A stretch of 5,044 bases of DNA from a bacterium (GTDB lineage: Bacteria; CSSED10-310; JAJRTK01): the NCBI GenBank assembly GCA_024278345.1, contig JAJRTK010000090.1:1-5044 (forward strand), written 5' to 3'. The notes beneath the pieces are model-generated. The model was given only the letters and a program-made list of their open reading frames with translations. It searched no databases and had not been told where the DNA came from. This document shows, piece by piece, positions 1 to 5,044 of this stretch. A program made the position numbers and the translations under genes. The first letter of the stretch is position 1. Each line of letters starts with the position of its first letter.

Positions 1-592
1 AAGAGGTGCCGAGGCTGGCGGTTTTTGGCCGGATGGAGACCTTGTAGTCGCGGACGTCGCGGAGTCCGATGAGGGCGACGGACTGTGGGAAGGCGCCGGG
101 TCTGCGCATGTAGCCGTCCCGGAGCTGGCGGAGGACGGAGACGAGGCTTTCGTCCAAAAGAGCGTCGATTTCGTCCAGGAAGAGGACGACGGGCCTGGGG
201 CAACTCTCCGCCCATTGCGCCAGGAAGAGGTTCAAGCGGGTGGCGGCACTCACGTCGGGGATCTTTTTCTTGGGTCGCAGTTCGGTGGGGAACTGCAGTC
301 GCGCTTCTTCGAGAAGCGACTCCACAACGGCCTGGACGGCTCCTTCGATGTTTTTTCCCATGGCCTGGGCCATTTCGCAACTTGCGTGGAGGGCGGCGTA
401 GTGACCCTCGGCGGTGAGAGTTTGTGCGAGGGTGCGGAAACAGGTGGTCTTACCCACCTGGCGTGGCGCGTGGATGACGAAGTAGAGCTCTTGATCGATG
501 AGGCGGCGGACACCGGGGATCCGGCGTTCCGGCGGGAGCATGTAATGTTTTTTCGGGTCACAGGGTCCGGCGGTATTGAAAAAGCGGTGCAT
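1..592 (-). CDS. AAA-type ATPase, N-terminal 197 residues (runs off the left edge)
   Basis: A P-loop ATPase of the AAA-like type that starts with a conserved-looking FNTAGPCDP...HYMLPPERR segment (residues 5-23). Visible motifs are a Walker A of the form HAPRQVGKTT (41-50), a Walker B VVLFLDEID (135-143) with the DE pair at 140-141, and LRDVRDYK (177-184), a probable sensor or arginine-bearing segment. The frame stays open to base 1, so the C-terminal domain is missing from view. The ATG at 592-590 is chosen because it directly precedes the family-like N-terminus. The frame stays open upstream as far as a TGA at 775-773, but that stretch is proline-rich low complexity without a start codon. 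A weak GGAA ribosome binding site sits 8 nt upstream. The proline-lined P-loop resembles archaeal-ATPase and Orc/Cdc6-like proteins. The specific function is unknown; a role in the neighbouring system is only inferred from same-strand proximity. Confidence 0.9.
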   Translation of the reverse strand, partial: MHRFFNTAGPCDPKKHYMLPPERRIPGVRRLIDQELYFVIHAPRQVGKTTCFRTLAQTLTAEGHYAALHASCEMAQAMGKNIEGAVQAVVESLLEEARLQFPTELRPKKKIPDVSAATRLNLFLAQWAESCPRPVVLFLDEIDALLDESLVSVLRQLRDGYMRRPGAFPQSVALIGLRDVRDYKVSIRPKTASLGTS

Positions 593-834: not shown

Positions 835-2874
835 TCAGAAACGGGTGGTGTCGTTGGGGTTGGCGTGGTCCAGGGCCGTCCAGGTGGGCGCCCAGGCCGG
901 GGCGTTTTGGCAGAGTATGGAGAGGACGGGGTTCGCCAGGATTTCCTCTTCCTTGCCCAGGACGATGACCTGGGTTTTGGCCCTGGAGAAGGCGACGCAG
1001 AAGAGGCGTTGGATGTCTTCCATGGCTTCGGGGCTGCCGGGTTTCGGGTGGATTCTGCCCATGAGCCAGACATGCTCCGGGGAGACGGGATCGAAGATGA
1101 CCATGTCGGCTTCTTGTCCCTGGGAAACGTGGATGGTGCCTGTGATGATCCGCTTTTCCCAGAGCCACGAGAGGTGTGTTCGGGCCAGTTTTTTGAGGAG
1201 GTTGGCCTGGAAGCGGAAGGGCGTGAGGAGGAGGGTTTTGGCGTTGGGTTGTGCATCGAGGATCCGTTTGGCGAGGCCGATGGCGATCCATGCGCTTCGT
1301 TCGCAGCGTTTTCCGTTGTCGGTTCGCTGGTCGGTGACCTGGTCGAGGGCCATGGGAGGAAGGGGCATGCGCCAGGGGTCGAGGATGGCGACGGCGTTGT
1401 GGGGCCAGCCGCGGGCAAGGGGTGGCTGGCGAGGGTTGCCGACGGTTTTCAGGCGGCTTTTGTAGAACGCACTGGAGATCACGCGGCAGAGGTCTGGCGG
1501 CATGCGGTTCTGTTGGGTGAGGAGTGTGAGGGAGCCTTCGGCTTCCCGGCGCTCCACGTCGCTGTTCCTGACGGCGCTTACCAGGTTGAAGAGGGACTCT
1601 CCGACCCAGTGGATGGAGTTCTTGTCCTTGTGATTGCTGGAGCGGCGGATGGGCCCCAGTTGCCGGATGTCGCCGGCCAGGATCAGTTGGTCGGGCGGAT
1701 GTTCGCTCAGGAAGGGGATGCTCCAGAAGCGGCTCACCATGCTGGCTTCGTCCACGGCCAGGATCCATTTGCCGCGGGCCAGCGCTGCCCGCACGCTTTC
1801 CTTGTTGAATCCAGAGAAGACAGTGGTGACGATGATTTTGGCATCGCGGGCCATGCTCCAGAGGGTGGCTGACCTGTTGCAGATGATGTCGCCCAGCTTC
1901 GCGTAGAGGCGGCCCAACTTTCCCAAGAGTTTTTGGCGGGATCCCATGCTTTGGCCGGAGCTGAGCTTCTTTTGGGTTTTCTTGATGCACTTTCTCACGC
2001 TCTGGATCTTCGAGGCATATTTCCGGAGTTTTTCCGCCCAGAGCATGAGGTGCTTCCTGGACTCGAGAGCATGGAGGACGGGGTTTCCGGGGCGAATGAG
2101 TTCGCCAGCCTCCAGGGCCTGGTCCATTCTGTTGCGAGCATCGTCGATGGCCAGGGCCACGGTGTCCGTGGCGACATTGGTGGGGGCCAGGACCAGCATC
2201 TTGAAGCCCTCGATGGAGAGGGCGGAAACCAGGCTCCCCAGGGTGTAGGTCTTGCCCGTTCCGGGTGGTCCCCAGATCATGCTCAGTTTTCGACCGCCCG
2301 CCAGCAACGCCGATCTCTGGCGGTGCCGGAGGGTTGCATCCAGGTCGGCCAGCTCCTCCAGGTCGAGGCATTTCCCATCTTTGGCCCATTCGCCAGCTTC
2401 TATCTGGTCATAGGCCGTGGGCAGGTCGCGGCCGGCCTTGATTCGCCGCATGAGCCATCTTCGCATGCCGGCGCCGTAATCGGGTTCTATGAGCTTGAGG
2501 CGTTGTCCGAGCTTTGGCGAGGTCTGGTCCGTGGGGCTCTCCACGGTGAGCTGCGCTTCCTCGGGCATGATGGTCAGGGCGGCGCCATCCCAGAGCCGGC
2601 GGTTGTCGGGCAGGTAGCCCTCGGCGTCCCAAAATTCGTGATGCGCCTTGAGTCTGTCGCCAGCAGAGACGGTCAACAAGTGCAGGTCGTATTCTCGTTG
2701 CTGAGAGGTCCCCGGGAACTTGACGTAGCGAGTAAGGAAGAGGGTTTCAATGATCTCGAAATCGACACTATCGAGTCGTTTCCACTCTTCCACCAAGGCG
2801 TCCAAGATCCCCTGGTGGGAGCGGTCCAAGGAACGCGGCTGGTACTGCTGCCTGTACTTTGGTCTCCAGCTCAT
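835..2874 (-). CDS. Superfamily 1 (Upf1/DNA2/NAM7-like) DNA or RNA helicase, 679 aa
   Basis: An ATP-dependent nucleic-acid helicase or translocase, predicted cytoplasmic. All core motifs appear in order: Q186 before motif I, motif I GPPGTGKT (202-209), Ia VLAPTNVATD (228-237), II DEAS (375-378), III LAGDIRQLGP (399-408), IV QQNRMPP (454-460), V TIHVSQGQEAD (580-590) and VI VAFSRAK (627-633). The order and wording fit the Upf1-like SF1B group; substrate (DNA or RNA) cannot be told. Residues 1-180 form a mixed segment I do not recognise. A basic, probably helical stretch at about 270-345 lies between Ia and II, where this group carries inserted subdomains. The protein ends about 45 residues after motif VI, so no extra C-terminal nuclease is fused. 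The ATG overlaps the CARF gene stop by 4 bp, with AGGAG 8 nt upstream inside that gene, so translation is probably coupled. It is visibly less GC-rich than the CARF gene (31 of 60 bases at 1801-1860). Confidence 0.95.
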   Translation of the reverse strand: MSWRPKYRQQYQPRSLDRSHQGILDALVEEWKRLDSVDFEIIETLFLTRYVKFPGTSQQREYDLHLLTVSAGDRLKAHHEFWDAEGYLPDNRRLWDGAALTIMPEEAQLTVESPTDQTSPKLGQRLKLIEPDYGAGMRRWLMRRIKAGRDLPTAYDQIEAGEWAKDGKCLDLEELADLDATLRHRQRSALLAGGRKLSMIWGPPGTGKTYTLGSLVSALSIEGFKMLVLAPTNVATDTVALAIDDARNRMDQALEAGELIRPGNPVLHALESRKHLMLWAEKLRKYASKIQSVRKCIKKTQKKLSSGQSMGSRQKLLGKLGRLYAKLGDIICNRSATLWSMARDAKIIVTTVFSGFNKESVRAALARGKWILAVDEASMVSRFWSIPFLSEHPPDQLILAGDIRQLGPIRRSSNHKDKNSIHWVGESLFNLVSAVRNSDVERREAEGSLTLLTQQNRMPPDLCRVISSAFYKSRLKTVGNPRQPPLARGWPHNAVAILDPWRMPLPPMALDQVTDQRTDNGKRCERSAWIAIGLAKRILDAQPNAKTLLLTPFRFQANLLKKLARTHLSWLWEKRIITGTIHVSQGQEADMVIFDPVSPEHVWLMGRIHPKPGSPEAMEDIQRLFCVAFSRAKTQVIVLGKEEEILANPVLSILCQNAPAWAPTWTALDHANPNDTTRF

Positions 2875-2887
2875 GGCGCCAGCTCCT
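2871..2887 (-). promoter_or_regulatory. Translational coupling site: ATGA overlap with strong ribosome binding site
   Basis: On the minus strand the helicase ATG (2874-2872) shares bases with the CARF gene TGA (2873-2871). A good Shine-Dalgarno, AGGAG, lies at 2887-2883 with 8 nt to the ATG. This fixes the helicase start and argues for re-initiation by ribosomes finishing the CARF gene. Confidence 0.85.
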
Positions 2888-4025
2888 GCCGCCGGAGAAG
2901 GCCTCGGCCCAGCACTTCGTCCAGCTCCCGCATCCCCCGGCGCCAGGCCAGGAGTCTCGGGTCTTGTCGCAATCGTCGCATCCGCTCCTTCAGGCTTTCC
3001 ACGGCCCTCCCCGTGTTCTCCGCCACTTCGAGGAGCATCTCGGCCTCTTCCAGCAACGCCCGGGCCGCCGGCGGATCATCCTCGGCCCACCGCGCCTTTG
3101 CCGCCACGAGAAGCACCGCCGCCCGCGCCGCCCGCCTGTCACCCCCGCTACTGCGCCGCGCCGCCGCCACCAGGCCACGGGCCTCGGCACCCACGGGAAT
3201 CCCCAGTCTTCCCAGCGCCGGGAACTCCTCCGAAAGCACGCTGAAGCGGCCCGTCCGCAACGCGTGCGCCCCCCGCGCGAACCTGGCCCACTGGCGATCC
3301 AACCGCGACGCGCAACTCTCCTCGGCAACCTGCGAATAAAGGCGATGCGCCGGAAGACAAGCTCCACCCCGGAGCAGCGTCGCCGCCGATTCCCGCCGCA
3401 AGTCGCCAAACTGGTCCAGAACGTTGGGAAGCTCCTCGATCCGCTCGTGGTGCGCATAACCCCATTTGCCCCGTTCCTGGACCCCCCGGACATAGAAGAG
3501 GCGCCATCCGAAAAGACTGCCCACGCCGGCAATGGCCGCCGTCATCGTCTTCCTACCCCCTGTGATGTCCGCCCCCACCTGCCGCCCTCCAGGCAGCCCG
3601 CAAGCATCGAAGCAATCCCGCATCGTCCGGGCCATCCCGCCCACGTCCGTCCCGTCAATCCGCAGGTGGAGCCACGTACCCACATCCGCGCCCACCGCCT
3701 CTTCCACCTCCAGCCCATACTCCCGCGTTTCCGGCGTTTCCAAAAGCGCCACACTCCGGCTGGGATTCCCCAGAATCGCCAGGATCGGCGCATAAGGCTG
3801 CGTCCCCACCGGCACGAAAAGCAATTCCAACCGGGGAACCCCCTCGCGACCCATACGAATCCGTTCACAAGCCAAGGGAAACGTCGTCTTCCGGTAAAAA
3901 GCCGCGGCCTTCTCCGGGTCCGCCTCCCCCAGCCAAAACTCGACCGCCTCGTCGTAGGCATCGGATAGAGCCCCTCGCCACCGAGCACGGGTCGAAAGAG
4001 AAACGGTCGTCTTCTTGTGAGACAT
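2871..4025 (-). CDS. CARF-domain protein, putative cyclic-oligonucleotide sensor, 384 aa
   Basis: Residues about 65-190 look like a CARF domain, the Rossmann-like fold that binds cyclic oligoadenylates made by type III CRISPR complexes. A hydrophobic strand runs into FVPVGTQP (70-77), and DITGGRKTM (153-161) is the canonical (T)GGxKxM ligand-loop motif, followed by a strand at about 174-179. GGRKTM with arginine is known from CRISPR-associated CARF proteins and ring nucleases. The N-terminal ~64 residues are helical with many charged side chains. The C-terminal half (about 200-384) is Ala/Arg-rich and probably all helical; no PD-(D/E)XK, toprim, TIR, protease or membrane segment is visible. 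R248-x5-H254 only loosely resembles the HEPN RNase motif. The ATG at 4025 has AGGA 10 nt upstream and an in-frame TGA eight codons before it (4049-4047), so no longer start exists. The gene is very GC-rich (46 of 60 bases at 3061-3120). A non-CRISPR CARF role, as in RtcR-type regulators, is possible. Confidence 0.85.
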   Translation of the reverse strand: MSHKKTTVSLSTRARWRGALSDAYDEAVEFWLGEADPEKAAAFYRKTTFPLACERIRMGREGVPRLELLFVPVGTQPYAPILAILGNPSRSVALLETPETREYGLEVEEAVGADVGTWLHLRIDGTDVGGMARTMRDCFDACGLPGGRQVGADITGGRKTMTAAIAGVGSLFGWRLFYVRGVQERGKWGYAHHERIEELPNVLDQFGDLRRESAATLLRGGACLPAHRLYSQVAEESCASRLDRQWARFARGAHALRTGRFSVLSEEFPALGRLGIPVGAEARGLVAAARRSSGGDRRAARAAVLLVAAKARWAEDDPPAARALLEEAEMLLEVAENTGRAVESLKERMRRLRQDPRLLAWRRGMRELDEVLGRGLLRRQELAP

Positions 4026-4112: not shown

Positions 4113-4236
4113 CGAATGCCCAGGCTTCCTGTTTGGCGCCGTGAAACCGGACCACCCCGGCGATGCCCTCCACCTCGGCTCCCAGTCCTTCACTTCTGCG
4201 CCATGGGGAAAGCGGCCTCATCCTCGCTCTGCATGG

Positions 4237-4257
4237 GTGCTGCGTTCCGCTCCCATC
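4237..4257 (+). repeat. Copy of dispersed GCGTTCCGCTCCCATC motif (inverted partner at 4998-5018)
   Basis: The 21 bases match the reverse complement of 4998-5018 at 20 positions, including an exact 17-base core (4241-4257). Partial similarity continues past the core, with CCATCCG shared further in. It is one of several imperfect copies in this spacer. Confidence 0.75.
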
Positions 4258-4431
4258 AGCGTCCATCCGGCCGCTGCTGTCCGCATCTCACGACCCATGA
4301 CTCGTTCCCGAAGCCCTCGAGCCGCCGTGCCCGGAGATCCGACCGGTGCCCCTGCTCACGCCGCCGCCCACGACTCCGGAATTACTCGTCAGCGGGGACA
4401 ATGATTGGAACTCCCCTTTTTCCTCGTGGCG

Positions 4432-4456
4432 GTGCGTTCCACTCCCAGCGGAACGA
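4432..4456 (+). repeat. Diverged copy of the GCGTTCC motif, forming a small inverted repeat
   Basis: GTGCGTTCCACTCCCA (4432-4447) differs from the main motif by a base in the CGCTCCC part. Here CGTTCC (4435-4440) and GGAACG (4450-4455) are inverted partners with a 9-nt loop. The right arm forms the start of the 44-bp tandem repeat. Confidence 0.55.
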
Positions 4457-4466
4457 CCGGGACCTA

Positions 4467-4480
4467 TCAAGCCGGCTTGA
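4467..4480. promoter_or_regulatory. Perfect 14-bp palindrome, copy 1 (possible protein-binding site)
   Basis: TCAAGCCGGCTTGA equals its own reverse complement. It could bind a dimeric protein or fold as a cruciform or RNA hairpin. It lies about 440 bases from the CARF start, too far for an ordinary operator. Confidence 0.35.
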
Positions 4481-4510
4481 CAAGTTGACCCAAGGAACGA
4501 GCGGGACCTA

Positions 4511-4524
4511 TCAAGCCGGCTTGA
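4511..4524. promoter_or_regulatory. Perfect 14-bp palindrome, copy 2
   Basis: Identical to the palindrome at 4467-4480 and centred 44 bp from it, close to four helical turns, so the two would lie on roughly the same face of the DNA. Function is unknown. Confidence 0.35.
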
Positions 4525-4583
4525 CAAGTTGACCCAAGGAACGAGCGGCCCCCTTCAACTCCGTGAATCCCGGCCGGCCCGCC

Positions 4584-4804: not shown

Positions 4805-4997
4805 CGCCGCCGGCCTAGATGCCCCAGGGATTCCTGCGATTTCGCTTGGCCGTGTTCCCCTCTTCCCAACGGCATGGGAAGCCAAGTAAGAGAACTCCGT
4901 GGATGAGCCTATGGACCAATTTCCGGTGGTGCTTCAGCCCTAGGGCAATGGAGCGAAGGCGGCGGTAATGGCGAGCAGCGGGCGTCGGATGGCGACC

Positions 4998-5018
4998 GAT
5001 GGGAGCGGAACGCAACAC
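4998..5018 (-). repeat. Inverted copy of the dispersed GCGTTCCGCTCCCATC motif
   Basis: On the plus strand this contains GATGGGAGCGGAACGCA (4998-5014), the exact reverse complement of 4241-4257; over 21 bases there is one mismatch. With 4237-4257 it encloses about 780 bp of gene-free sequence. Confidence 0.75.
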
Positions 5019-5044
5019 GAAGAAGACAAAGGGTTTGCCGAGAA

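Follow-up and report, generated by a model that had tools for sequence, protein, structure and literature searches.

A CARF protein without HEPN domain and an overlapping UPF1-like helicase gene: a candidate two-gene effector switched by cyclic oligoadenylate

Background

Known effectors of the response to cyclic oligoadenylates (cOA) comprise nucleases and proteases, membrane proteins, transcription factors and a small number of further enzymes (PMC12669027, PMC11229360). A 2025 classification of these effectors distinguishes HEPN, PIN, RelE, PD-(D/E)xK, HD, caspase, Lon, other enzymes, regulators and membrane proteins and names no helicase, and the word "helicase" is absent from a survey of newly found type III effectors published in 2024. 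Here we describe a pair of overlapping genes that encode a CARF sensor protein and a UPF1/IGHMBP2-like superfamily 1 (SF1) helicase, located on contig JAJRTK010000090.1 of a bacterium of the lineage CSSED10-310. This stretch of 5,044 bp, referred to as the window, is one complete contig (C7) of a 6.06-Mb draft genome of 550 contigs, and the sampling of its phylum comprised eight genomes only.

Several described systems share features with the pair. With the cOA-activated CARF-HEPN RNases Csm6 and Csx1 (TIGR02710-like) it has in common the branch of the CARF domain, as judged by profiles and fold, a helical linker following this domain and a similar genomic setting. In contrast to these, its CARF protein is devoid of the HEPN RNase, and the gene that follows and overlaps encodes the partner, an SF1 helicase, as a separate protein. 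CalpL/CalpT/CalpS is a multi-gene cOA system. The combination of cOA sensing with an effect distributed over several genes is also found in Cami1-Cam3 (PMC11229360) and in CARF proteins associated with vWA-MoxR-VMAP or RNA polymerase genes (PMC10910872). Unlike in all of these multi-gene systems, the coupled partner in our pair is a helicase.

UPF1-like SF1 helicases (CnuH) are known from CoCoNuT systems, and CARF proteins occur at some CoCoNuT loci. However, the core of these systems consists of homologues of the McrB GTPase and the McrC nuclease, and the CARF proteins found with them are Can1/2-like or RtcR-like (PMC11090510). Membership of the pair in type II or III CoCoNuT was rejected, as no CnuB (McrB-like GTPase) or McrC homologue was found among the scanned neighbours in five related loci (L024, L059, L075, L077, and L078); the window contig is too short for this comparison. 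The Mokosh system also contains helicases (MkoA/MkoC), and MkoA was the best PADLOC helicase match (E 4.8e-30). This match covers the helicase part only (positions 629-1074 of the 1112 of the MkoA model), and our protein of 679 aa lacks the extra regions of the Mko models of 1,112-1,136 positions and is partnered by a CARF sensor. Hence, assignment to Mokosh was rejected as well. Literature searches combining CARF with helicase or UPF1 returned only the CoCoNuT work, reviews and unrelated papers, although an earlier mention in the CARF and accessory-gene surveys of 2018-2020 is possible.

Results

The same helicase gene directly follows the CARF gene in all 11 testable genomes, i.e. those whose contig continues past the CARF gene, and these genomes belong to at least five phyla. 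A scan with a two-sequence CARF alignment (A1) resulted in five loci, among them several from metagenome-assembled genomes (MAGs), with the helicase right behind the CARF gene in all five (L024 to L028, Table 1). Searches of three further sets with a second alignment (A2) added the genomes G580, G888, G889, G890, G1135, and G1253. In G580 (L059) the contig ends inside the CARF gene, and L076 contains only the first helicase codons. The junction of both genes overlaps by ATGA or T(G/A)ATG in L024, L025, L027, L028, L074, L075, L076, and L077. In L078 the helicase starts with GTG just before the CARF stop codon, its first codons overlapping the end of the CARF gene. Since overlap and pairing recur in 11 genomes, the arrangement is far beyond chance.

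L007 is an exception, as the CARF tail and the helicase N-terminus are missing and the reading frames disagree. At positions 1950-2300 of this locus, about 140 CARF and 175 helicase residues are gone where the frames meet out of register. Because of these losses and the differing frames the copy may have been deleted or misassembled; a frameshifted fusion may also account for it.

Table 1. Coordinates of the features in the window and setting of the pair in related loci
Feature	Position	Strand	Description
CARF protein gene	window 2871-4025	minus	384 aa; open reading frame, profile matches and predicted fold
Leading helices of CARF protein	residues 12-58		
CARF Rossmann domain	residues ~65-202		
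DITGGRK motif	residues 153-159		
Helical linker-like tail	residues ~202-384		no HEPN
UPF1/IGHMBP2-like SF1 helicase gene	window 835-2874	minus	679 aa; all core motifs present
ATGA overlap	window 2871-2874	minus	CARF stop TGA shared with helicase start ATG
AGGAG ribosome-binding site of helicase	window 2883-2887	minus	inside CARF gene, 8 nt before helicase ATG; read directly
AAA ATPase gene, first 197 codons	window 2-592	minus	cut by contig end
Pair in bacterium CPR1	L024		PrimPol, Cas1, TPR-cold-shock (TPR-CSD) gene and Csx1 beside pair
Pair in Deltaproteobacteria MAG	L025		
Pair in MAG Dive96	L026 = L007		divergent Cmr1 gene beside pair
Pair in Fimbriimonadaceae MAG	L027		
Pair in Acidobacteria MAG	L028		
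CARF gene of G580	L059		Csx1, Cas6, PrimPol, Cas1, Cas2 and CARF on one strand; ~9 nt from cas2 to CARF start
E2 and JAB stretches upstream of pair	L074 1-1028		
E1(ThiF), ubiquitin-like, E2-like and JAB genes upstream of pair	L075 8411-11207		
E1(ThiF), ubiquitin-like, E2-like and JAB genes upstream of pair	L076 3953-1157	minus	
Neighbours of pair	L077		Csx1 upstream, Csx20 domain downstream
Neighbour of pair	L078		CARF-RelE gene coupled by ATGA

Near the lower-scoring CARF-HEPN relatives, profile searches detected no helicase of this type, and a helicase search of 386 diverse genomes yielded close relatives only within pairs. No relative of the pair was obtained by searching genome contigs and plasmids with single CARF sequences, nor by helicase and CARF-alignment searches of viral contigs, while the helicase search of plasmids resulted only in distant UPF1-like helicases. 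The pair family was reached only with alignment A1 and not by the single-sequence searches.

Residues 36-239 of the CARF protein of the window were matched by the CARF1-HEPN models of PADLOC (E 5.7e-19) and by the Csx1 model (E 1.5e-12). With 27.5 bits (E 1.4e-6) it stays below the curated cut-off of 83.9 of TIGR02710 and is not a member of this equivalog family. A profile of six CARF sequences matched Csm6 of Thermus thermophilus in the PDB (E 6.6e-10) from Csm6 residue 25 to 340, thus ending ahead of the C-terminal part of Csm6. Csm6 was also the nearest structure to the AlphaFold2 model, which has a mean predicted local distance difference test score (pLDDT) of 81 (Foldseek E 2.4e-14; Z ~21). 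The root mean square deviation (rmsd) of ~12 in this comparison is due to a different placement of the domains. Residues 65-202 of the model fit the CARF domains of Cam1, Can2, Card1, and Cdn1 at an rmsd of 1.8-3.0, with Z scores of 12-15 for the first three, and the CARF domains of the ring nucleases Sso2081, Sis0455, and Sis0811 were also among the fold matches. The hallmark of the CARF superfamily is a Rossmann-like fold with the motif [DN]X[ST]XXX[RK] at strand 4 (PMC4012209). Both were found in our protein, with DITGGRK at strand 4 and fold Z scores of 12-21 to many CARF proteins. D, T and K of this motif are invariant across the six aligned relatives (A2).

The part following the CARF domain distinguishes the paired proteins from Csm6 and Csx1. 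No conserved R-X4-6-H of HEPN domains was found in the tails of the paired CARF proteins, and the protein of the window lacks the C-terminal HEPN domain with this motif that characterizes Csm6 and Csx1. For the paired proteins, the match to the best CARF1-HEPN model already ends near position 228 of 441; lower-scoring CARF-HEPN relatives without helicase (L079, L080, L081, L082, and L003) match the same model to about position 420, nearly its end. The tail of the structural model can be aligned to Csm6 up to residue 448, but because of the rmsd of ~12 this was not read as a HEPN fold. According to profiles and predicted fold, the protein is a sensor of the Csm6/Csx1 type (CARF1) with a helical tail from which the HEPN RNase is absent.

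In the helicase, AAA_11 and AAA_12 score above the Pfam cut-offs, and profile matches were obtained to SMUBP-2/IGHMBP2 (E 3.5e-35) and UPF1 (E 1e-31). Fold matches of its model are IGHMBP2, SETX, UPF1, and SEN1. The core motifs GPPGTGKT, DEASM, GDIRQLGPI, GTIHVSQGQEAD, and VAFSRAK are all present, so that motifs I, II, III, V and VI of UPF1-like SF1 helicases are represented, and the nearest relatives are UPF1, IGHMBP2 and SEN1. The 679 aa contain no recognisable nuclease or kinase domain in addition. The N-terminal residues 1-132 were examined for an OB-fold 1B with stalk helices, but with pLDDT values mostly under 50 the model is unreliable in this region. These features identify the protein as a complete UPF1/IGHMBP2-like SF1 helicase.

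These data bear out the original prediction of a CARF gene followed by a complete Upf1-like SF1 helicase gene. Both open reading frames and their ATGA overlap are located as proposed, and so is the AGGAG within the CARF gene, which reads CTCCT on the plus strand (2883-2887). The structural model, which had been suggested as a check on the first protein, is CARF-like, and the pair is not confined to a single genome. It had also been stated that the arrangement was not recognised as characterised, and no described helicase effector of this kind was found in the literature.

In the phylogenetic analysis the paired CARF proteins form one side of a branch separating them from the CARF-HEPN relatives, with support of 99/97 and presence in 100% of the bootstrap trees. 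The paired helicases are set apart from three outgroups with weak support only (72/73). Three groups, i.e. the window with L024 and L025, L077 with L078, and L074 with L075, recur in both the CARF and the helicase tree. Moreover, CARF and helicase distances of ten pairs correlate with r = 0.80 (permutation p 5e-5). The pairs are of common ancestry, and their two genes have been co-inherited. The simplest reading is that one single exchange took place, in which HEPN would have been lost and the helicase acquired, and that both genes were inherited and transferred together thereafter.

Type III CRISPR or cOA-effector genes are immediately adjacent to the pair in 5 of 12 loci (L007, L024, L059, L077, and L078; Table 1). 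Thus, the pair is encoded in or beside type III loci, though not in all cases. PrimPol, Csx1 and TPR-cold-shock genes, as found in L024, also accompany Cas10 on contig C59 of the Acidobacteria genome. In L078 a UvrD/GajB-like helicase gene (3250-6054, plus strand) is convergent with the pair, and genes for an AAA ATPase, a protein of no recognised family and the CARF-RelE protein are located upstream on the strand of the pair (8882-11543, minus strand). The genome of the window itself contains 20 matches to RAMP families on seven contigs and at least five Cas10 genes with intact GGDD, so a source of cOA is at hand. Defence genes in homologous loci, which had been proposed as a check, are therefore present. 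As a separate observation, the type III complement on contigs C71, C161, C326, C340, C377, C201, and C244 (L017-L023 in G000, the genome of the window) is unusually large for one draft genome.

Several repeats were found in the remainder of the window. Copies of the truncated AAA ATPase gene (window 2-592) with 91-93% identity are located at both ends of contig C326 (L019 1-611 and 12723-13338), where they flank a type III locus. Joining C7 to C326 via this common gene was rejected, since the degree of identity and the presence at both ends of C326 argue for a repeated element instead of an assembly overlap. The gene probably is a repeated or mobile element. Upstream of the CARF gene, a 44-bp tandem repeat is present in 2.2 copies with 98% identity (4450-4548). 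Dispersed repeats at 4948-5024 and 4232-4318 are 79-92% identical to stretches in several type III contigs of the same genome (L017, L019, and L023).

Discussion

Our analysis suggests a cOA-switched immune effector of a kind that has not been described before. We consider it rather probable that the pair is a two-gene ancillary effector of type III CRISPR systems, in which cOA bound by the CARF protein, probably cyclic tetra-adenylate (cA4), gates the helicase in trans. When the cell is infected, a type III complex whose genes lie elsewhere in the genome would produce cOA, most likely cA4, by means of its Cas10 cyclase. A dimer of the HEPN-less CARF protein of the Csm6/Csx1 type would bind this cOA; rather than activate an RNase in cis, it would switch the helicase on or release it in trans. 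Powered by ATP, the helicase would subsequently translocate along RNA or single-stranded DNA and would remodel nucleic acids or nucleoproteins that the phage or the infected cell needs. Candidate targets are phage transcripts, R-loops or replication intermediates, and ribonucleoproteins of the infected cell. We thereby infer cOA binding, the choice of cA4, a physical complex, the gating, and the substrate of the helicase. cA4 is favoured because the neighbouring Csx1, Csx20 and CARF-RelE are of kinds classified as cA4-type effectors or ring nuclease (PMC12409355), and because the nearest solved relative of the CARF model was crystallised with cA4.

Some observations weigh against a type III context of the pair. 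No cas gene is adjacent to it within the window, a contig of only 5 kb, or next to it in L025, L027, and L028. In the Armatimonadota loci L075 and L076 it is located directly behind an E1(ThiF)-Ubl-E2-JAB operon (Ubl, ubiquitin-like), with the JAB gene coupled to the CARF gene by ATGA. Hence, CRISPR linkage is not universal. Neither RAMP proteins nor a convincing Cas10 were detected in the pair genomes G386 and G387, both fragmented MAGs; G386 nevertheless contains Cas1, PrimPol and Csx1 beside the pair. Furthermore, Cas10 is not significantly enriched in genomes with the pair (3 of 6 against 41 of 145), and enrichment was dropped as an argument since these counts are too weak. An independent or mobile anti-phage module, whose CARF protein senses a signal unrelated to type III systems, e.g. 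a nucleotide as in cyclic oligonucleotide-based antiphage signalling (CBASS) or RNA ends, would suit the ubiquitin-like operon, the lack of adjacent cas genes in L027 and L028, and a PADLOC candidate defence gene beside the pair in L025; the nearness to cas genes would then reflect clustering in defence islands. This seems unlikely to us, because the adjacent type III and cOA genes in five loci, in one case arranged as a same-strand cas operon, and the position of the sensor in the Csm6/Csx1 CARF1 branch speak against it. Of the two options of the original prediction, an auxiliary of type III CRISPR is thus better supported than an independent system.

The ring nucleases among the fold matches and the common occurrence of ligand cleavage in CARF sensors (PMC12409355) would also fit a CARF protein whose main role is to adjust the signal, either as a ring nuclease or as a cOA sink. 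The helicase would then work with the Cas complex, e.g. by clearing target RNA or R-loops, and would not be gated by CARF. However, the protein most closely matches the effector Csm6, helical linker included, and not the compact ring nucleases, and it is strictly paired one-to-one and co-inherited with the helicase, which further reduces this to an improbable explanation. That an SF1 repair helicase merely neighbours a CARF remnant without functional link is hardly credible. The pair of L007, which has lost its middle part and in which the frames no longer agree, could be seen in this light, but unlinked neighbours are contradicted by a pair that is conserved in at least five phyla with overlapping start and stop codons, by helicase motifs that are intact and by the correlation of CARF and helicase distances.

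If the pair acts as a type III effector gated by cOA, it would add an output to the cOA response that need not destroy host RNA. We see about an even chance that the pair is a cOA-gated helicase and the first class of effector of type III systems, and possibly also of ubiquitin-like operons, with ATP-driven remodelling of nucleic acids as output in place of cleavage, proteolysis, membrane damage or transcriptional control. It would also mean that a CARF sensor can relay its signal to a distinct motor protein, and a ligand-switchable helicase might be of use as a tool. In Armatimonadota, the pair links sensors of the cOA type with bacterial operons for ubiquitin-like conjugation.

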